30,981 nucleotides of DNA from a virus, in IMG/VR virus record IMGVR_UViG_3300028558_000079, positions 1 to 30,981 of that record; one strand, 5' to 3'. The translations under genes and the position numbers were made by a program. The notes below the pieces were generated by a model. That model was not told the origin of the DNA, did no database searches, and worked only from the letters and a program-made list of their open reading frames with translations. Shown here in pieces: positions 2,357 through 18,142 of the stretch; positions within the stretch are counted from its first letter, which is position 1, and each line of letters begins with the position of its first letter.

Positions 2357-3519
2357 TGGGCATCCTCTCCAACACCGTCAGCATCTGCCACTTCAGAATA
2401 TTGGGCGAGCTGCAGAACCTTGACCTCTACGAAGAAGCACCGGCGCTGCTTGCGCGCCAGGCATTCACCCCCATCGATGAGAGCGCAGAGGAAGTCTCTC
2501 TCGGCTGGGTCCACCTCGAGGATCCGAAGGCGCACACCTTTGAGGCCTCCGTCTGCTGGCGCGAGCAGTACCTCATTTTCTCCCTGCGTCGGGATCAGCG
2601 GAAGGTTCCGGCGGCACTCCTGAAGGAACAGGTTGATAAGGCCTGCACGGCGTTCCTTGCTGAGAACCCCGGCTATACCCGCGTCCCGAAGCAGAAGAAG
2701 GAGGACCTCAAGGACGCCGTCCGCTCGAAGCTTCTCGCCAAGGCGCTCCCTGATCCGAAAGTTTATGACGTCGTGTGGGACACGCAGGCCAATCTGCTGA
2801 CCTTCGCCACGCTTTCCCCGAAGACCATCGAGATGTTCGAGGATCTCTTCAAGAAGACTTTCGAGGGGCTCAGGCTCGCCGCCTTCCATCCCTACGAGCG
2901 TGCCTATTCCGTCTTGGACGAGCTAGGCCGCCAGCGCCTGAAGGAAGCTAACCGCGCCGGCGGCGATAATTTCCTGGAGCTGATCAAGGAGAACCAGTGG
3001 CTGGGGACTGACTTCATGGGATGGCTGCTTTACCTCACCATGAACGAAGCGAGCGAGTATCGCGTCAACCAGCGCGGCCCGCTCCTTGAGAGCGAGCCCT
3101 TCGTCGCCTACATCAATGACCGCGTTGTCCTAGTCGGCGAAGGCGAGGGCGGCACGCAGATGATCACCGTCAACGGTTCGCAGGATCGTTTCAACGAGGT
3201 CAAGAGCGCGATGCAGTGTCGTAAGCTTATCACCGAGGCGACGATCCACCTGGAGAGCGGGGACTACCATTACTCGCTGGTTCTCAAGGGTGAGATGTTC
3301 CACTTCGCGTCCTTCAGTTCCCCTGGCGTCAAAGTGGAAAAGGATAGCACCGTCGACGAGCTGATGGAGCGCGAGGCGGTGTTCTTCGAGCGCATGCTCT
3401 TACTCGAGAAGGGGCTGCAGCTGCTCAACTCACTCTTCAGATCCTTTCTCGATGTTCGACTTGGCAACTGGCCCCACATGGAGATGGTCATTGCCGAGTG
3501 GATCCACGGAGACGCCTAG
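2356..3519 (+). CDS. RdgC-like recombination-associated protein
   Basis: 387 residues. The N-terminus (MGILSNTVSICHFRILGEL) followed by an F-x-P...GWV segment near residues 36-52 and an LIFSLRRDQRKVPAALLKEQV segment near 75-95 fits the RdgC family. RdgC proteins form DNA-encircling dimers and modulate RecA in bacteria. The protein is longer than E. coli RdgC (about 300 residues), with a divergent C-terminal half. It starts at the overlapping TAATG with a strong aggagg site upstream. The neighbours, a RusA-like resolvase and an ExoX-like exonuclease, support a phage recombination or repair role. Identity rests on pattern recognition, so a divergent relative is possible. Confidence 0.6.
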   Translation: MGILSNTVSICHFRILGELQNLDLYEEAPALLARQAFTPIDESAEEVSLGWVHLEDPKAHTFEASVCWREQYLIFSLRRDQRKVPAALLKEQVDKACTAFLAENPGYTRVPKQKKEDLKDAVRSKLLAKALPDPKVYDVVWDTQANLLTFATLSPKTIEMFEDLFKKTFEGLRLAAFHPYERAYSVLDELGRQRLKEANRAGGDNFLELIKENQWLGTDFMGWLLYLTMNEASEYRVNQRGPLLESEPFVAYINDRVVLVGEGEGGTQMITVNGSQDRFNEVKSAMQCRKLITEATIHLESGDYHYSLVLKGEMFHFASFSSPGVKVEKDSTVDELMEREAVFFERMLLLEKGLQLLNSLFRSFLDVRLGNWPHMEMVIAEWIHGDA

Positions 3520-3963
3520 ATGGTTTCCTTCTTCGTCCCGGGAACTCCTATTCCCAAAGGTTCGGCTAAGGGTTTTTACAACAAAGCCCTTGGCCGGGTG
3601 ATGATTGTCCAGGACAACAAAGAGAAACAAGCTCCCTGGGCGTCGATGATCGCTGTCGTCGCTCAGGGGCACTTTGTCAAACCCATCGAGGGGCCGGTAA
3701 TGATCAGCCTGGCCTTTAAGATGCCGCGGTTAAAGGGTCACTTCGGGAGCGGAAAGAATGCGGGTGCCTTGAAGTCATCCGCGCCGACCTATCACGTTTC
3801 AAAGCCCGACTGCGACAAGCTGCAGCGCTGCGTCTGGGATGCGCTTACCGGCATTGCCTGGAAAGACGATAGCCAGGTGGCCATCGTCACGCATGCCAGC
3901 AAGAAGTACAGCGACAAGCCGGGCGTACATATCAGGATCAGTGAAATCAAGGAGGCACTTTGA
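3520..3963 (+). CDS. RusA-like Holliday junction resolvase
   Basis: 147 residues, close to the usual 120-150 of RusA enzymes. The family core is visible: FFVPGTPIPKGSAK near the N-terminus, and KPDCDKLQRCVWDALTG followed by DD at about residues 96-117. Asp97, Asp99 and the Asp116-117 pair are the likely metal-binding acids. RusA resolves four-way DNA junctions by paired cleavage during phage recombination and before packaging. The start directly follows the RdgC-like stop, behind ggag. Its TGA overlaps the TTG of the exonuclease by four bases, so the two are probably co-translated. Confidence 0.88.
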   Translation: MVSFFVPGTPIPKGSAKGFYNKALGRVMIVQDNKEKQAPWASMIAVVAQGHFVKPIEGPVMISLAFKMPRLKGHFGSGKNAGALKSSAPTYHVSKPDCDKLQRCVWDALTGIAWKDDSQVAIVTHASKKYSDKPGVHIRISEIKEAL

Positions 3964-5883: not shown

Positions 5884-6699
5884 ATGGCAAGAAAAGCAAA
5901 AGCGACAGTTGATTATTTCCCGCACGACTGCGACGCCAGCACAAAAAAGACCCTGTACATCATCGAGTCCAGGTACGGCAATGATGGCTTTGCTGTCTGG
6001 TTCAAAACCCTGGAAAAGTTAGGCCGGACCTCTGGTCATTTTCTGGACCTGCGGGATAAGGCAGAGCTCCACCTCCATGCCGCTACCTGTCACGTTGACC
6101 CCGATACTCTCGTTGAGATCCTTTCGGCCTTTGCTGAACTCAGTGCGATTGACGGTGATTTATGGCGTCATAAATGCGTTTTTTCCAGCGGATTTGTAGA
6201 AAGGATCGTTGACGCCTACCGCAGGCGGATAAATGACCTCCCGACTAAAGAAAAGATTCTTGCCGTCATAAATAGCGTTTGTGTCGTCAATATGTCGGCA
6301 GGAATGTCATTACTGCCGGAAGAAATGACACAAAGGGAAAGGGAAAGGGAAAGGGAAAGGGAAAGGGAAAGAAAGACTAAAGGCATGTCTGCAGGGCCGG
6401 CACCGGAAGCTCAGAGTGAGAAGTCCACCGAGCAGACCTTCACCGAAAAGCAGCTGCGGGCATGCATCGACAAAAGACGGAATTGGCTGGAAGCGAAATA
6501 CCCTCTCGCTGATGTCGACGTTGAGCTTGAGGAGATGGTGGCAAAATACCGCGACACCTCCATCGGGGCTGACCCCTTCCTGCTCGTCTCCAGGTGGTTC
6601 AAGAGGCTCAAGGATCAGGATGTCTATGATGATGGCCCTGACCCTCTCGACGCACGTCGTGCAGCCATAGCCGCACAGGAGGTAACCGATGCAGGGTAA
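5884..6699 (+). CDS. Replication initiation-like protein (Lin1244/Lin1753, DUF4373 type N-terminus)
   Basis: 271 residues. The N-terminus (residues 8-60: VDYFPHDCDAS...IIESRYGNDGFAVWFKTLEKLG) matches the DUF4373/Lin1244 domain of phage replication proteins related to DnaD/DnaB-type loaders. Six Arg-Glu pairs (about residues 151-162) come from a perfect six-copy GGGAAA tract. The C-terminal part (CIDKRRNWLEAKYPLADV, then FLLVSRWFKRL) looks like a helical DNA- or helicase-contact region. A gtggaga site precedes the ATG. Its position just before the terminase module and ahead of another small gene fits origin recognition or helicase loading, which is inferred. Confidence 0.65.
   Translation: MARKAKATVDYFPHDCDASTKKTLYIIESRYGNDGFAVWFKTLEKLGRTSGHFLDLRDKAELHLHAATCHVDPDTLVEILSAFAELSAIDGDLWRHKCVFSSGFVERIVDAYRRRINDLPTKEKILAVINSVCVVNMSAGMSLLPEEMTQRERERERERERERKTKGMSAGPAPEAQSEKSTEQTFTEKQLRACIDKRRNWLEAKYPLADVDVELEEMVAKYRDTSIGADPFLLVSRWFKRLKDQDVYDDGPDPLDARRAAIAAQEVTDAG
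6335..6370 (+). repeat. (GGGAAA)6 perfect hexanucleotide tract
   Basis: Six exact GGGAAA units in a row inside the replication-like gene, encoding alternating Arg and Glu. Whole-unit slippage adds or removes two codons and keeps the frame, so the charged linker length can vary without loss of the protein. Confidence 0.95.
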
Positions 6700-10850: not shown

Positions 10851-13800
10851 ATGGCTGAACGCGGGCAGGGTAAAGCAGCAATGGCGACGACTCAGGGGGC
10901 GAAGACTTCCGACCTGAGTCTGAAAAGCCGGATGATCCAGGCGCTCAAGATCGTGATGGGTAAAGAGCCCATCACGAACCTTGACCCCAATGAGGCGCCC
11001 TTCGGCCCGCTGCAGCCGCTGCAGCCCGCGTACCAGGAGGAGATGAAAGGCCGGCAGCTCGACTACCTCCCCGGCTACAACCTCATCTACGAGCCGCGCG
11101 CCGAAGAAGCCACCTCATTCAAGACGCTGCGTGGCTTTGCCGACACCTACGACCTGCTCCGCCTGGCCATCGAGACCCGCAAGGACCAGCTGTGCCGCCT
11201 CACCTGGAGTGTCCGCTACAAGGAGAAGGACAAGGACCCTGACGACCGGTGCAAGAAGGCGCGGGCCTTTTTTGAGTTCCCGGACGGTGCCAACGACTGG
11301 GCCACCTGGCTGCGCATGCTCGCGGAAGAGGTCTTTGTCACCGACGCCCTGACGATCTACCCCCAGGTGAACAAGGGCGGCGATCTGCTCTCCCTGGAAG
11401 TGATGGACGGCGCGCTGATCAGCCGCAAGATCGACGCATCCGGCCGCACCCCTGCCCCGCCCGATGTCGCCTATCAGCAGATCATCAAAGGGCTGCCCGC
11501 GGTCGACTACTGCCGCCTCGACCTTTCGGAGAACCCGGTTGCGGTCCCCGGGAGCGAGCTGATCTACGCCCCGCGCAACCCGCGCGCCTGGAAGTTCTAC
11601 GGTTTCTCTCACGTAGAGCAGATCATCATGACGGTGAACATCGCTCTTCGCCGGCAGGTTCACCAGCTCCAGTACTACACGGAAGGATCGATTCCCGACA
11701 GCATCGTGAGCTGCCCGCCGGAATGGACCGCCGACCAGGTCGCGCACTTCCAGGAGCTCTTTGACACGATGCTATCCGGCAACACGGCCGAGCGTCGCAA
11801 GATGCGTTTCATCCCAGGTGGAACTGGAACCCACATTTTCGACACCAAGGAGAAGGCGCTCAAAGACGAGTTTGACGAGTGGCTGGCCAGGGTGATCTGC
11901 TACTGCTTCAGCCTTCCTCCCACGGCCTTCGTGAAGCAGAACAATCGCGCCACCGCGGACAACGCCAAGGAGGCCGCAGAGGAAGAGGGCAACGCCCCGA
12001 TGATGATCTTCATCAAGTCGACCATCGACCGCATCCTCACCCGGTTCTTTGGTCGCGACCTGGAGCTGGCTTGGGACGAGGAACGCGATATTGACCCGCT
12101 TATACAGGCACAGATCGATGCGATTTACCTCGGCGGGGGAGCTTCGAACAGCGTCGCCGTCGTTACCGCCGACGAGGTCCGGAACGAACTCGGGAAAAAG
12201 GGTTCGGCACCGGAGCCCCCGCCTCCTGTGGTAGTGGCGCCGGCAAATGGAGAGGCTGATGATCCTGTCAAGGGCGGAAACAAGAAGACTGCGGGCACTG
12301 CTGCAGTCGGGGCCAATGGCAATAAAGGTGGTGCCGCTAAGCCAAAGTCAGGCAGCACAACTGCCAAGGCTAAACCTGCCGCCGGCTCAAAAAAAAAGCC
12401 TCCAGTGACCAAGACAGCGGAGCCTGACGTGGTGAGAGCGAAAAAGGAAATCCCCTCGATAGATCGGGAGCGCGACGAGATCACCAAGGCGCGCAAGGAA
12501 CTCATCAAGGTTCTGGAGAAGTTCTTCGCTTCCGAGGCTGCGGCGGTCGCTGACTATGTGTCCGAGGTTTACGACTTCGCCAGCATCGCCCCCGAGGATG
12601 TGGCCGCCACGGTCGACCGGATCATGGCCGGCCTCGACATGAGCCGCTGGGCTACCCTCATTGACCCGACCGAGGAAGCTCTCGCGCGGATCTACCAGGA
12701 CGGGACCGTCGTCGCATTTCAGCAGATCGACTTTGCACCGACCGACAAGATGACCAGTCTGATGAGCGAGCGGGCCAAGGCCTACGCTGAGAAGAGATCG
12801 GCTGACCTGGTCGGGATGAAGAACATCGGCACCAAGGCAAATCCCGAGTGGGTCGTCAACAAGGGGTTCCAGGAAGACGGCACGGCGTGGGCGATCACCG
12901 ACACGACCAGGACCAACGTGCAGAAGATCGTCACCGAATCCATCGAGAATAACCACAGCGTCAACGAGCTGCGCCAGACGCTGATGGATTCCGAGTCGTT
13001 CAGCGCCTACCGGGCGGAGATGGTCGCACGGACCGAGCTCGCCTTCGCCGACGTCGCCGGGAATATGGACGCCTACCGGCATTCGGGGATCGTGACGGGT
13101 AAGGAGTGGATTCTCGGGAGCGAGCATGATGACGATGACGATTGTGACGCCAATGCGGACGCGGGCGTGATCGGGCTGGATGATGCTTTCCCGAGCGGGA
13201 CCGACGCACCGCCGGACCACCCTAACTGCCTAATCGAAGGTGCTGTAGTAGCGGCCGCTGGTGTCACGAAGCACTTTAAACGCTGGTTTGGAGGGGAAGT
13301 GGTCACTTTGAGCATCGCAGGCATGGACGATTTGACCATCACTCCAAACCACCCGGTACTGACGGATGCAGGATGGATTGCGGCTGGTCATCTCAAGCAA
13401 GGAGATAACCTCCTTTTCTGCAACAGGCCATCCGAGGTCGCGGCCTTTCTGGACCCAGACGATCACTACGTGGAAACCCGCATCGAGCAAATAGCGGACA
13501 CGCTTCTCGTGGCGGGCGGCATGTCTACCTACAGCGTGCCAGCTTCCGCCGAAGCATTCCACGGCGACGGTACCATTGACGGCGAAGTCGAGGTTGTAAA
13601 TACCACAGGCTTTCTGGTGGACGACGGAGAAGCCCTTGCTGATCAGCGCATCATAGATGTCCTGCTCAGTGTGGGGCATGGGGCGCCCAGCACGCTCGAC
13701 ACCGAGGGCGCGGCTTGTGAGGTCGTCCACGGTTCGCTTCATGCCACGAACAGCATCATGGGCAGCGGCAGCGCGAGCCTGACGGGCATCCGGAGAAATG

Positions 13801-14093
13801 CGAGCGGCCTGGACGATGTGGGCATCACTCCCGTCGCGAACAGCCAAACCCAGCTTGTGGAAACGATTCCTGAGGGTGGAGCTATGGCACCCGACTCGCC
13901 TAGCAATATCACAAGTCGACTCGCCGGCCTCGTACGCCTCGTGAAACTCGACAATATCAGCCGTGGTAAATATCTTGGACATGTCTATAACCTCCAAACG
14001 AAAGATAGCTTCTATGTAGCACATAACCTGATTGTACACAACTGCGTCTGCGACGTTTTGCCGGTGCTGATGGACCAGGAGGACGACCAGTGA
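10851..14093 (+). CDS. Portal protein fused to MuF/gp7-type minor head protein, with intein
   Basis: 1080 codons including a 272-residue intein (codons 793-1064); the spliced protein would be 808 residues. Residues 1-450 are a portal: LDYLPGYNLIYEPR, the stem and crown regions, then VTADEVRNELG. A Pro/Ala/Lys linker (about 455-530) contains nine A bases in a row. Residues about 533-792 plus the last 16 are a MuF/SPP1 gp7 domain with ARTELA near 726 and the terminal HPN-CVC motif. The intein splits this motif between Asn792 and the Cys that becomes +1. Portal forms the DNA gate of the head; MuF proteins act in head assembly. They are commonly separate genes, so this fusion is notable. The start ATG follows gagg. 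Confidence 0.88.
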   Translation: MAERGQGKAAMATTQGAKTSDLSLKSRMIQALKIVMGKEPITNLDPNEAPFGPLQPLQPAYQEEMKGRQLDYLPGYNLIYEPRAEEATSFKTLRGFADTYDLLRLAIETRKDQLCRLTWSVRYKEKDKDPDDRCKKARAFFEFPDGANDWATWLRMLAEEVFVTDALTIYPQVNKGGDLLSLEVMDGALISRKIDASGRTPAPPDVAYQQIIKGLPAVDYCRLDLSENPVAVPGSELIYAPRNPRAWKFYGFSHVEQIIMTVNIALRRQVHQLQYYTEGSIPDSIVSCPPEWTADQVAHFQELFDTMLSGNTAERRKMRFIPGGTGTHIFDTKEKALKDEFDEWLARVICYCFSLPPTAFVKQNNRATADNAKEAAEEEGNAPMMIFIKSTIDRILTRFFGRDLELAWDEERDIDPLIQAQIDAIYLGGGASNSVAVVTADEVRNELGKKGSAPEPPPPVVVAPANGEADDPVKGGNKKTAGTAAVGANGNKGGAAKPKSGSTTAKAKPAAGSKKKPPVTKTAEPDVVRAKKEIPSIDRERDEITKARKELIKVLEKFFASEAAAVADYVSEVYDFASIAPEDVAATVDRIMAGLDMSRWATLIDPTEEALARIYQDGTVVAFQQIDFAPTDKMTSLMSERAKAYAEKRSADLVGMKNIGTKANPEWVVNKGFQEDGTAWAITDTTRTNVQKIVTESIENNHSVNELRQTLMDSESFSAYRAEMVARTELAFADVAGNMDAYRHSGIVTGKEWILGSEHDDDDDCDANADAGVIGLDDAFPSGTDAPPDHPNCLIEGAVVAAAGVTKHFKRWFGGEVVTLSIAGMDDLTITPNHPVLTDAGWIAAGHLKQGDNLLFCNRPSEVAAFLDPDDHYVETRIEQIADTLLVAGGMSTYSVPASAEAFHGDGTIDGEVEVVNTTGFLVDDGEALADQRIIDVLLSVGHGAPSTLDTEGAACEVVHGSLHATNSIMGSGSASLTGIRRNASGLDDVGITPVANSQTQLVETIPEGGAMAPDSPSNITSRLAGLVRLVKLDNISRGKYLGHVYNLQTKDSFYVAHNLIVHNCVCDVLPVLMDQEDDQ
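12389..12398 (+). promoter_or_regulatory. A9-G slippery tract between portal and MuF domains
   Basis: Nine A then G, read as TCA AAA AAA AAG. Both A AAA AAA and A AAA AAG (the heptamer used by E. coli dnaX) are in the right phase. The -1 frame stops at TGA 12425-12427 and the +1 frame at TGA 12406-12408. Either event would release a portal of about 518-525 residues without MuF. I see no strong downstream stem-loop, so transcriptional slippage on the A run is at least as likely as ribosomal frameshifting. Confidence 0.5.
13230..13982 (-). CDS. Antisense Vsr-like (EDxHD-type) homing endonuclease with N-terminal HTH
   Basis: 250 residues, read opposite to the intein. The start at 13982 (MSKIFTTADIVEFHEAYEAG) is chosen for its GGAGG site 8 bases upstream; the frame stays open to 14039. 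Residues 8-45 form a helix-turn-helix (CDIARRVGCHSSTLRNRFHKLGL). Residues about 104-196 have the Vsr/EDxHD nuclease layout: TEQDIYDAL (Glu106), YNLDFAV (Asp132), VAVECFGGSWH (Glu142, His149), RHEKRVRYLLDAGFHVVIVWV. I-Bth0305I is a characterised member of this nuclease class. The stop is TAG at 13232-13230, the reverse complement of intein codon 2. The gene is the only convincing minus-strand gene here and probably cuts the intein-free allele to drive homing. Confidence 0.85.
   Translation of the reverse strand: MSKIFTTADIVEFHEAYEAGESTCDIARRVGCHSSTLRNRFHKLGLAVRDGSDAHIVQAARISPDARQARAAAAHDAVRGMKRTVDDLTSRALGVERAGRPMPHTEQDIYDALISKGFSVVHQKACGIYNLDFAVNGTVAVECFGGSWHAVGRHAARHEKRVRYLLDAGFHVVIVWVQKGRDLGWPVAEKEVISLLEMTSRNPSCIRQYRVVWSDGQIVHACDAQSDHFPSKPAFKVLRDTSGRYYSTFD
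13991..13995 (-). promoter_or_regulatory. Ribosome binding site of the antisense endonuclease
   Basis: On the minus strand GGAGG stands 8 bases before the ATG at 13982. On the + strand the same bases are part of the codons for the intein block F residues Asn-Leu-Gln. This site decides the endonuclease start. A possible weak promoter further out (TTGTGT, 17 bases, TACATA on the minus strand, about 14012-14041) is not convincing. Confidence 0.65.
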
Positions 14094-17000
14094 AAAAGCT
14101 CATCATCGTAATCCTGATCCTCCTTTGCTCCGCTCCGGCATGGGCAGCCGATTATATCGTCTACATCGATTCCACGGCTAGTGCCGGCGGCAACGGCACC
14201 ATCGGGACGCCCTGGAACGCCTTCAGCTCCATCAACTGGACGACCGCCACCAGCGCGATCACCGCCGGCAGTGTGGTCAATATCAACCTGAAGCGCGGGT
14301 CTCTATTCCGGACCAACCTAGCCATCGGTGCATCGGGGGTAGCAGGACGACCACTGGTGGTGCAGGCTTATGGCACAGGCAACAAGCCGGTCATCAACGG
14401 CGCGGATATCGTCACGTCCTGGTCAGCTTCCGGCGCAGGCCTGGGATCGACTTGGCAGGCAACTTGCGGGGCCACCGCGGGCGCTATCTTCCTTGTGAAC
14501 GGCACTCCTTTCATTCTCGGGGCCAGTGCCACCACCCTGAACGACCAGGAATATTTCCAATCAGGCACTACCCTGTATTTCAGGAATGATGCAGGGAACC
14601 CCACGACGCTGGGGCTCGTGACGGAACTGTCACAGCGTGACCCGGTGACGAATAACAACCACCCCTACGTGACGTTCTCCAACATCGAGTTCAGGAACGC
14701 CAATGCGAACGCTATTGCATTCTCCAACGTGGTCAACAACCAGACGGTAACCGATAGCGACTTTTACGATTGTGCCCAGTCCCTTTCCTTCAACACCGGA
14801 GCTAATACGGTCGCCCGATGCCGGTTCATTCGTGGTGGAACGGCTCAACAGGTAGCTCTTGGGGCCACGGGTGTAAGCGCCGACATTTCATATTGTCTGT
14901 TTAAAGACTCGACTTCGAGGGGGGTAAGGTCGCAATACGGCACTACCCTGAGCCTAAGCAACTGCACATTTTACGGCATGCACGGCGCGTCCTATGACAA
15001 CTCTTCTGCGGCTATGACTGCGACGCTCACCAACATAATCATTGCTGGCGGCGGTTCTGACAGCAATGGGAATATTTTGCAGTCGACCGCCGGGACGGTA
15101 AGTTTGTCCAATTCCGTTCTGACTGTCTCCCGGGATGGTTCAGGCCCAACTGGCGTAACCATCGGGTCAAATGTGACTTATGCCGATCCCTTGGTCACCA
15201 ATCGAGGATTTACAGGACTGCTCAGCTGGTCCACCGATGACGGTGACTACATCTATTGGAACAGGATGGGAACAGTGCTCAGGGGAGTTTTCGGAGCTAC
15301 CGGAGCTACCCTAGCGGATTACAGCACCACTCAGCACTCCGCGCCCCAAATAGCCGCCATGCAAGCCGCCGTAGCTGCGGGGGATGAAGTTGCCGGCCAC
15401 ACCAGGAATGGTGTTGGCAATGTGGTTGTTCTCACCGCGTTCAAGATTTACGGGGCAACCTGCGGTACGTCCACAGCTACTGTGAGGGTTGCCAGCAACC
15501 ATCTTATCGTGAAGGTGGACGGCTCGGACCAGTACGACCTTGACCTGACGAACGTCTCTTATGACGCTTTGGGGGAAGTCACCACCTATCTGAACAGCAA
15601 GGCATGCACCGGTGGGGGAACTATTAGCATAACCACCGATGCAGATACCGCCAAGGCTAACACTAAGTCGGCGTCGTTGGCTGATCTGGCGGAAACCAGC
15701 TTCAGGGTGGCGTCCGGTTCTGCACTGCAACTTTCCTTCGATTCCACCAAATACTGGACTGAGGAAATCGTCAATTCCAGAACGGACATTGAAACGTTCA
15801 TTGGCGGAGGGTATACCGCACCGGTGTTCATTTACCCGCAAGGTGGGTATAGCGCAGGTTTAATTTCATTTTTGATCGCAAATGGTTTTACTGGCGCAAG
15901 GGTAGTTTATACAGCAGCATCGTTTTCAACTCAGCTAAAAAAACTTAACCAATATCAGACTGTTGGGATGACCTCCACTACAGCCCAAGGTATGCTGGTT
16001 CATATTTCAATGTATAACGCTTTAACTGATTCAATCGGTGGACAGACTTTTACTGGAACAAACCTTGGCTCTTATGTCACACAGCAGTATGGCAGGCTTC
16101 CGGTTGATTTTTATGGTGCAGCTACCTTTAATGGTACCACTTCAAGAGCGTCAAGAACTTCCATAACCGGCCTTGACTATACCACGGCAGACTGGTCCGT
16201 TGGCATGATGGCTCACCCGGTAGCATTGACTGGCAACCATACTCTTTGGTACCACGGGGATGCCAGCGGCGCATCCAACTACTCGAAGCTGTGGATTTCT
16301 TCTGATGGTGCAGTTCATTTTACCATTATTGCTGGAGGGTCAGCAGTTGTCTCCCTCTCAACCGCAGCAGGAGTCATGACGGCTGGAAATACGAAGGCCG
16401 TAGGTGTGCGACAGCAGTTAGGCTCCATCGACATAATGGTAGGAAGTAACTACTGCACCAGCACAAGCGACTACGTAGTAGCGGATACCGTGGGTGCAAC
16501 GACAGTGACCTCAGTCGTTCCGGGAGCGGGATCGGCAAGTTACGGCGGTGCCATGTACCTCGGTGCAAGCTATGACGGCACCACGTACTCCGATTACTAC
16601 AACGGGCATATGAACTCATTCTATATTGCTAAGAATACCGCAAGATTGGCGATAGGAATGGCGAATGCGGTTACGTCGAATGGTGGCTTATATGTCACTT
16701 TCATGCATCATGCCGATGTGCCTTACGATGTCATAAGGAACTATGCGGATGCCATCAAGTGGGCGCAGAACCATGGCGCAAATGTCCTGGTCAAGACACA
16801 CAAGGACGCTTACGCCTACATAACGACTCAAGGTTACAAGTCTTCGGATGGGGCCTATCTCTCATGGAAACAGACTGATGCTTCAAATTATGTTCCACAA
16901 GCTACATCCCCAGCAGTCGATACCGGGACCAACCTCGGTTATTCGACAGACTTGGCAGGGACAGCTGTTCCTTACAACAGCATCCCTGACATGGGGGCTT

Positions 17001-18142
17001 ATGAATATTTCCCGACGACAGTAAACGGGGCCTGCGGGACGAACAACACCGGATCATTTGACACCTTGACTAGTGCGACAGCCAATGATTGCGCTACGGG
17101 CACCGTCACCAGCTTTACCACTGGGTCTGGCCCATGGACTTGGCAATGCGTAGGTAGCGGGACGGGGCATACGGATTCAGGGACCTGCAGCGCGAGCGTC
17201 AACAGTTACGCCGTTTCGACGACCGGGGCAAACGCAACCTTTACGCCATCCTCGGCCTCGGTGAACTTCGGAGGAACGACAACCCTAGCCGTCGCGGCCG
17301 TCACGAATTACAGCATCACAGCGGTCTCTGGATGCAGCGGCTCCTGGAACAGCGGCACCGGGATTTTTACGACCGGGACCATGTCAGCGAATTGCACCGT
17401 AACGGCAACGGCGGCCATCAACAGTTTTACGGTCAGCACTGCCGGAGCGAATGCCACGTTTACGCCCAGTTCGGCGTCAGTGAATTATGGGAGCACTACC
17501 ACGATCAGCGTCGCGCCGGCAATAGGGTATGCCATATCCGGAGTCACTGGATGCGGTGGTTCTTGGAATAGCGGCTCTGGAGTCTTCACCACGGGGGCGA
17601 TTACCGGTGCATGCACTGTGACGGCGGCGACGAGCATCCTCCAGGAAACGGCGACGCCGAGCGCCGGTGCGAACGGATCACTCGGACCGGCGACAGCACA
17701 AACGGTGAACTACGGGGCCACGGTGGCGTTTACCGTCACCCCCGCGGCCTGCTATAGCATAGGGACCGTCACCGGCTGCAGCGGCACCCTGGTCGGAAGC
17801 ACCTACACCACCGGGGCCATGACTGCGAACTGCACCGTCAGCGCGACCTTTACCAGTAGCGGGACGACATACACCGTCACCCCGAGCACCGGCGCGAACG
17901 GGACGATCAGCCCGTCGAGCCCGCAGACCATTGCCTGCGGGAGCCCGGCGACGTTCACCGTCACCCCCTCGACAAATTATTGGGCCTCGGTAGGAGGGAC
18001 CTGCGGGGGAACCCTGGCGGGGACAACCTACACCACCGGAGCGATCACCAGCGCCTGCTCAGTTTCGGCAACATTTGCGGCGATTTCCACTGGCACAAAC
18101 CCTTATGGGCTCGGCTACGCCCTTGACTTTAACTGGTACTGA
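14090..18142 (+). CDS. Large exported mosaic protein: beta-helix, NodB-type deacetylase, LamG-like, InlB-like repeats
   Basis: 1350 residues, GTG start overlapping the portal stop (GTGA) behind aggagg. A signal peptide ends at APAWA/AD (after residue 19). Residues 20-370 look like a right-handed beta-helix. A polysaccharide deacetylase follows: DDGD at 383-386, GDEVAGHTRN with His437, YPQGGYS near 582, and HHADVPYD near 873. A LamG-like sandwich (about 665-860) sits inside it. The beta-helix-type ending DMGAYEY (near 970) comes after the deacetylase, so deacetylase and LamG seem inserted in the beta-helix. Then come a Cys-containing VNGACG module and four InlB-like repeats to the end. It probably binds and modifies cell-surface polysaccharide. 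A bacterial-style Sec signal on a phage late-operon protein suggests cargo rather than a virion part. Confidence 0.75.
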   Translation: MKKLIIVILILLCSAPAWAADYIVYIDSTASAGGNGTIGTPWNAFSSINWTTATSAITAGSVVNINLKRGSLFRTNLAIGASGVAGRPLVVQAYGTGNKPVINGADIVTSWSASGAGLGSTWQATCGATAGAIFLVNGTPFILGASATTLNDQEYFQSGTTLYFRNDAGNPTTLGLVTELSQRDPVTNNNHPYVTFSNIEFRNANANAIAFSNVVNNQTVTDSDFYDCAQSLSFNTGANTVARCRFIRGGTAQQVALGATGVSADISYCLFKDSTSRGVRSQYGTTLSLSNCTFYGMHGASYDNSSAAMTATLTNIIIAGGGSDSNGNILQSTAGTVSLSNSVLTVSRDGSGPTGVTIGSNVTYADPLVTNRGFTGLLSWSTDDGDYIYWNRMGTVLRGVFGATGATLADYSTTQHSAPQIAAMQAAVAAGDEVAGHTRNGVGNVVVLTAFKIYGATCGTSTATVRVASNHLIVKVDGSDQYDLDLTNVSYDALGEVTTYLNSKACTGGGTISITTDADTAKANTKSASLADLAETSFRVASGSALQLSFDSTKYWTEEIVNSRTDIETFIGGGYTAPVFIYPQGGYSAGLISFLIANGFTGARVVYTAASFSTQLKKLNQYQTVGMTSTTAQGMLVHISMYNALTDSIGGQTFTGTNLGSYVTQQYGRLPVDFYGAATFNGTTSRASRTSITGLDYTTADWSVGMMAHPVALTGNHTLWYHGDASGASNYSKLWISSDGAVHFTIIAGGSAVVSLSTAAGVMTAGNTKAVGVRQQLGSIDIMVGSNYCTSTSDYVVADTVGATTVTSVVPGAGSASYGGAMYLGASYDGTTYSDYYNGHMNSFYIAKNTARLAIGMANAVTSNGGLYVTFMHHADVPYDVIRNYADAIKWAQNHGANVLVKTHKDAYAYITTQGYKSSDGAYLSWKQTDASNYVPQATSPAVDTGTNLGYSTDLAGTAVPYNSIPDMGAYEYFPTTVNGACGTNNTGSFDTLTSATANDCATGTVTSFTTGSGPWTWQCVGSGTGHTDSGTCSASVNSYAVSTTGANATFTPSSASVNFGGTTTLAVAAVTNYSITAVSGCSGSWNSGTGIFTTGTMSANCTVTATAAINSFTVSTAGANATFTPSSASVNYGSTTTISVAPAIGYAISGVTGCGGSWNSGSGVFTTGAITGACTVTAATSILQETATPSAGANGSLGPATAQTVNYGATVAFTVTPAACYSIGTVTGCSGTLVGSTYTTGAMTANCTVSATFTSSGTTYTVTPSTGANGTISPSSPQTIACGSPATFTVTPSTNYWASVGGTCGGTLAGTTYTTGAITSACSVSATFAAISTGTNPYGLGYALDFNWY

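Follow-up and report, generated by a model that had tools for sequence, protein, structure and literature searches.

An intein in a phage portal-MuF gene with a candidate homing nuclease encoded antisense on the same DNA

The window analysed here is the whole 30,981-base sequence of the IMG/VR virus record IMGVR_UViG_3300028558_000079. On its plus strand, a single open reading frame (ORF; 10851-14093) joins a portal and a MuF domain around an intein, which is inserted in the MuF domain between ...PPDHPN and CVCDVLPV. The intein lies at 13227-14042, exactly where a preliminary description of the sequence had located it, and runs contiguously through 272 stop-free codons from C1 to a terminal HN followed by Cys. 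The minus strand of the same DNA holds a 250-residue ORF (13230-13982), also as described, which begins with ATG after TTTGGAGGTTATAGAC, ends with TAG and encodes a candidate homing nuclease.

Each codon of the nuclease gene was found to be the exact reverse complement of one intein codon, and 753 of the 816 bases of the intein also code for the antisense protein. The nuclease stop TAG is, as had been noted, the reverse complement of intein codon 2 (CTA, 13230-13232). The good ribosome binding site claimed for the nuclease corresponds to GGAGG at 13995-13991, which precedes the ATG by eight bases. Read on the opposite strand, the intein block F motif GHVYNLQ constitutes this Shine-Dalgarno (SD) sequence plus the start codon, the CAT codon of His252 becoming ATG. 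The maximal antisense frame had been described as reaching 14039 and ending within the intein. Position 14039 was retained as the farthest start codon, but the stop-to-stop frame extends to 14099, 57 nt beyond the intein, and is longer still in many relatives. Since the stop-free frame exceeds the intein, the nuclease gene is bounded by its conserved start and not by a stop.

Table 1. Features of the intein-containing portal-MuF gene and of the antisense nuclease gene (AF2, AlphaFold2; pLDDT, predicted local distance difference test; aa, amino acids)
Feature	Position	Strand	Evidence
Portal-MuF fusion gene, interrupted by the intein	10851-14093	+	PF04860 aa 108-399, PF04233 aa 689-793
MuF domain, N-extein side, last residues ...PPDHPN	12915-13226	+	Pfam; intein-free relative L116 aligned across the junction
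Intein, 272 aa: C1, T39-x-x-H42 (block B), GHVYNLQ (block F), H271-N272, +1 Cys	13227-14042	+	PF14890 E 1.5e-6
N-terminal Hint part, residues ~1-95	13227-13511	+	AF2 pLDDT mostly 81-98; Foldseek top match Mtu RecA intein 2imz
Linker predicted to be disordered, intein residues 129-223, facing the nuclease	13611-13895	+	AF2 pLDDT <50 almost throughout
C-terminal Hint part, residues 230-272, blocks F and G	13914-14042	+	AF2 pLDDT 87-97
C-extein CVCDVLPVLMDQEDDQ	14043-14090	+	
Candidate homing-endonuclease gene, 250 aa + stop	13230-13982	-	PF18741 MTES_1575 E 2.5e-9; frame analysis
Shine-Dalgarno GGAGG, facing block F codons	13991-13995	-	SD-like in 73/86 members
ATG start, facing intein His252 (CAT)	13980-13982	-	ATG 70/86, GTG 7/86
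N-terminal helix-turn-helix, residues 7-43	13854-13964	-	HTH_38 E 3.6e-4; GcrA DNA-binding domain Z 7.1
Conserved AAHDAVRGMKRT motif, between helix-turn-helix and nuclease	13731-13766	-	H75 61/66, R79 62/66, G80 64/66
Vsr/DUF559-like nuclease fold, residues 101-223, C-terminal hairpin facing Hint block B	13314-13682	-	Fold comparison, AF2
Glu106 codon, putative catalytic	13665-13667	-	E 63/66, D 3/66
Asp132 codon, putative catalytic	13587-13589	-	66/66
Glu142 codon, putative catalytic	13557-13559	-	65/66
His149 codon, putative catalytic	13536-13538	-	60/66

Relatives were gathered by similarity, in a nuclease search and in a search with the sense Hint-N region. The nuclease search returned 14 IMG/VR loci and the intein search 2 more, all encoding both proteins on opposite strands of the same DNA; a profile-like search gave 384 relatives, of which 80 were fetched. 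By tblastn, 86 records of isolated phages matched the nuclease; the majority are Salmonella phages belonging to Jerseyvirus and related genera, and phages of Gordonia, Vibrio, Escherichia, Shigella and Pantoea are also among them. Phages of Klebsiella, Edwardsiella, Pseudomonas, Mycobacterium and Rhodococcus were found via the intein, and hidden Markov model (HMM) searches detected the nuclease in these too, two of them giving no tblastn match. In the nuclease-found set, the sense ORF was unbroken and in the same codon phase in 90 of 90 distinct loci, with recognizable intein ends in nearly all. In the set found with Hint-N, the antisense nuclease was present in 69 of 69 distinct loci, again all in one phase. 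The open antisense frame, whose retention in homologous inteins the preliminary description had proposed as a test, was thus kept in close and distant members alike, and no sense stop occurred in any of the approximately 150 distinct members. That every member shares one codon phase suggests a single origin of the overlap. No intein relative lacking the nuclease was recovered among the 69 Hint-N loci, a set picked by similarity, so that distant relatives free of the gene are possible. The Klebsiella, Edwardsiella and Pseudomonas phages and Mycobacterium phage Sejanus, considered as nuclease-free candidates, were rejected because the profile finds the nuclease in all of them, and GE_vB_HIL, a candidate broken member, was set aside as its record is marked UNVERIFIED. 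The search for free-standing relatives of the nuclease gave only weak matches (E 3-10), for instance to homing endonucleases of Campylobacter phages and a DUF559 protein of a Bacillus phage, and none was found in a search of genome contigs.

The translation signals of the nuclease were conserved across the 86 members. The start codon opposite block F was ATG in 70, GTG in 7 and TTG in 1, and an SD-like stretch was present in 73. The Leu codon of block F was CTC in 63 of 77 sequences versus 26% in N-exteins, and the His codon was CAT in 70 of 77, the background ratio being CAT 125 : CAC 195.

Substitutions were counted in eight phylogenetically independent pairs, most Jersey-group pairs being excluded since one lineage would otherwise have been counted repeatedly. 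The ratio of differences at sense position 3 to those at position 1 was 71:13 in the C-terminal end of the intein, immediately upstream of where the nuclease gene begins. Inside the nuclease gene it was 94:152 (nuclease residues 2-60) and 174:270 (residues 61-190), differing from the 346:185 of the N-extein control with p values of 2.8e-12 and 5.5e-16, respectively. Substitutions therefore favour the third position of the nuclease opposite its body and the third position of the intein just upstream of its start. The sense codons that would place stops in the opposite strand were also scarce. TTA, CTA and TCA made up 0 of 5,015 Leu and Ser codons in the nuclease frame (140 full-length genes) and 41 of 6,177 in the sense frame, where the resulting antisense stops, as far as mapped, fell within the last ~30 residues of the nuclease. 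The eight members with GC <0.45 had 5 such codons among 378 in the sense frame versus ~140 expected from local N-extein usage, in which these codons account for 43% of Leu and 33% of Ser. Because these codons are avoided, in low-GC members as well, an antisense frame left open by chance is excluded.

The antisense protein was modelled with AlphaFold2 using 66 family members as input, giving a mean pLDDT of 92.7 and a predicted template modelling score of 0.75. Structural comparison of the model, which the preliminary description had proposed as a check, gave as best matches Vsr (1cw0; Z 10.5, root-mean-square deviation 2.5 over 114 residues), the DUF559-type protein 3hrl (Z 9.5) and the catalytic domain of I-Bth0305I (Z 9.2). 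Foldseek E-values were weak, the best being 0.024 for I-Bth0305I. The sequence profile independently matched 3hrl (E 5.7e-8) and I-Bth0305I (E 1.6e-4), and the Pfam family MTES_1575 was matched individually by 56 of 66 members. The residues previously proposed to be catalytic, Glu106, Asp132, Glu142 and His149, were all present and are conserved among the 66 aligned members at the frequencies given in Table 1. The profile, the fold and the acidic residues with the His place the protein in the Vsr/DUF559/MTES_1575 superfamily. In the alignment to 3hrl, however, the Asp that precedes a conserved Arg has no conserved counterpart; because this terminal Asp of the strict EDxHD motif is not conserved, the nuclease is classed as Vsr-like rather than EDxHD proper. 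Nuclease length varied from 231 to 344 aa (L003, L006, L016, L049 and others), both frames being open across the insertions, and the differences apparently correspond to extra helix-turn-helix-like modules of about 50 residues each.

For the sense product, the AlphaFold2 model had high pLDDT in the Hint parts only, with values of 65-70 at about residues 91-128. The best Foldseek match was the Mtu RecA intein 2imz (E 3.9e-4), and comparison of the intein profile with solved inteins gave a best E of 1e-11. The N-terminal Cys nucleophile (C1), T39 and H42 of block B and the terminal N272 were each present in 51 of 51 aligned intein members, and the +1 residue was Cys in the window and in the listed family junctions. 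The penultimate intein residue was Ser in 14 of the 51. The nucleophile, block B, the terminal Asn with the following Cys, the Hint fold and the existence of empty homologous sites identify the insert as a contiguous class 1-type intein, for which protein splicing is predicted from these features. Unlike in split-intein fractured genes, one sense ORF spans the intein without interruption, both in the window and in its relatives. In Rhodococcus phage REQ3 (L114), Ala replaces the intein Cys1 and the nuclease profile match is partial (69-218); it may be a member in decay or one resembling class 3.

Sites without the intein were found with a 540-base query of joined Jerseyvirus flanks, which matched 389 phage records. 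In 330 of these, a single place covered at least 80% of the query, contiguously among the matches listed. The exact empty junction is seen in SalM-TTS6, where ...CATCCTAAC is followed directly by TGCCG..., and L116, a relative of the window MuF that has no intein, aligns straight across the insertion point. Between Snoke (Kagunavirus) and BPS11Q3 (Jerseyvirus), the intein is 95% identical and the 700 bases upstream, in the N-extein, 67%. An intein more alike than its surroundings is the expected trace of homing and may reflect it, although recombination by other means is also possible. A nuclease encoded within the element, empty alleles and horizontal movement are together what is expected of a homing endonuclease.

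The locus is thus very probably a two-strand mobile element, with an intein on the sense strand and a homing nuclease antisense on the same DNA. The fully overlapping arrangement put forward in the preliminary description gained support from the 90 of 90 and 69 of 69 loci, the conserved residues and the nuclease fold matches. It also seems likely that the family is an undescribed phage intein lineage of single origin in which the nuclease is a separate, wholly antisense gene, with its start and SD sequence in block F and its fold overlapping Hint block B. Under this reading, the sense mRNA would yield MuF with the intein, which would then splice itself out of the MuF domain. An antisense transcript would be translated from the start in block F to give a separate helix-turn-helix plus Vsr-like nuclease, most likely cutting intein-free MuF alleles at the conserved junction between HPN and C during co-infection. 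Repair of the cut allele would copy the whole intein; splicing would in this way shield the host protein, and the antisense gene would bring about the spread of the element. The sense polypeptide facing the nuclease would be an unstructured linker, kept open only to connect the two Hint halves. Insertion in MuF may help to preserve the element, since imprecise loss would damage a capsid protein.

Several observations weigh against this reading. The start codon opposite block F was absent in 8 of the 86 members, some nuclease members lacked His149, and a sigma-70-like antisense promoter was looked for upstream of the nuclease start and not found. Expression, cutting and splicing are all inferred. 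Opposite Hint blocks A-B, the position ratio of 112:63 did not depart from that of the N-extein control (p 0.78). The middle position seldom changed there (25 in 459 codons) and all rates were lower, which is suggestive of dual constraint on the nuclease tail; as the ratio alone matches the control, such constraint is likely but not proven.

The antisense ORF could instead be a by-product, coding poor in TTA, CTA and TCA giving long mirror ORFs and intein similarity being mirrored on the other strand. The codons coincide exactly, in the phase where mirror ORFs arise most easily, and the majority of members are GC-rich. This explanation is nevertheless already contradicted by the codon-position test, in which the substitution pattern flips at the nuclease start. 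It would also have to accommodate a sense product predicted to be disordered precisely where the antisense protein is conserved and well folded, the nuclease matches obtained independently with Pfam, HMM and fold comparisons, the SD codon bias in block F and the low-GC members, in which antisense stops are much rarer than local codon usage would predict. We consider it barely credible.

Two further alternatives accept part of the arrangement. The antisense protein may be real but domesticated, for example as a MuF regulator or a phage-interference nuclease, and no longer homing. Free-standing phage homing nucleases are able to acquire other roles and the element is kept in many lineages; however, its patchy presence within one subfamily, the exact empty sites, the recent horizontal movement and the intact catalytic residues make domestication improbable. 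That the sense insert is a retained Hint-like domain and not a splicing intein appears less probable still. The penultimate Ser in 14 of 51 members and the Ala at C1 in REQ3 would fit such a domain, but not the invariance of C1, T39, H42 and N272 in the 51 members, the +1 Cys of the listed junctions or the position of the insert, in frame at a conserved motif for which empty homologues exist.

The two-strand element was compared with known systems. I-Bth0305I is intron-encoded; it and the Vsr/DUF559-type nucleases share with the antisense protein the catalytic fold, the E/D/E/H residues and a separate DNA-binding part, whereas I-Bth0305I has the strict EDxHD motif, with a final Asp that the present family does not conserve, and different DNA-binding modules. 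In the fractured genes reportedly described by Dassa et al. in 2009, an EDxHD-type nuclease gene lies between the halves of a split intein. These likewise pair a phage intein with a separate Vsr-like nuclease gene, but the present intein is not split, and the nuclease gene overlaps it in full. Canonical inteins carry the nuclease as a domain fused in frame, and all nested homing endonuclease domains occupy one conserved insertion site (PMC6801210). PhoVMA, TliVMA and Mtu RecA resemble the window intein in having a Hint domain divided, between blocks B and F, by a homing nuclease and in occupying a conserved position in an essential protein; here, in contrast, the nuclease is a separate gene on the opposite strand that also overlaps the Hint halves. 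In the ShiLan domain, a phage methylase insertion is open in the host frame and encodes a homing HNH nuclease in another frame (PMC11855218). There too, a second frame of the same DNA encodes the nuclease and the sense linker is predicted to be unstructured, but ShiLan uses the same strand, has no splicing domain and no detectable ribosome binding site, and is known from few examples, whereas the window element has the opposite strand, a Vsr-like fold and a Hint domain. Antisense homing-endonuclease genes are known inside nuclear group I introns (PMC9548176), likewise opposite the host-gene strand within a self-splicing element; they overlap a ribozyme intron, whereas the overlap here is with a second protein. 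In none of the compared systems is an unsplit intein combined with a nuclease encoded wholly antisense to it. No description of an antisense nuclease within an intein was found in the literature, the search not covering Gosselin et al. 2025 (bioRxiv) and Gorbalenya 1998. The former preprint, on actinobacteriophage inteins of 'non-canonical architecture', is cited in PMC11855218 with regard to overlapping reading frames in these phages and is the main risk to novelty.

To in-frame fusion and fractured genes, the arrangement would add a third way of pairing an intein with a homing nuclease. Pairs of long genes that overlap in antisense, with function shown on both strands, are rare and disputed; the many natural replicates and the clear predicted function of each strand make dual-strand coding directly testable here. 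Accessible coliphages and Gordonia phages offer a natural nuclease-plus-intein pair usable for homing experiments. The arrangement suggests that many annotated 'head morphogenesis' genes hide a nuclease gene, overlooked by gene finders because these do not allow complete overlap. The antisense ORF is listed as a 'hypothetical protein' in some Jerseyvirus records, and the intein is annotated in Snoke; both components were thus on record, although the literature covered here does not connect them.

In Salmonella phage PK1 (L020), the antisense ORF (2926-3735) and a nested ORF (3212-3658) are both annotated 'hypothetical protein'. In the phage records OQ507916, MZ560703 and MT677934, the head protein that carries the intein bears the label 'NAD+--asparagine ADP-ribosyltransferase', probably a transferred annotation. 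In L125, the nuclease profile match is divided between two frames, owing to a frameshift or a sequencing error. Sense ORFs of 1050-1071 codons, close to the size of the window portal-MuF gene, were present in L016, L021 and L027. Elsewhere in the window, a 1350-aa ORF with a signal-peptide-like start (14090-18142) follows immediately after the MuF gene and had no Pfam matches to E 1, and an ORF at 5884-6699 bears an (Arg-Glu) repeat tract, RERERERERERERER.

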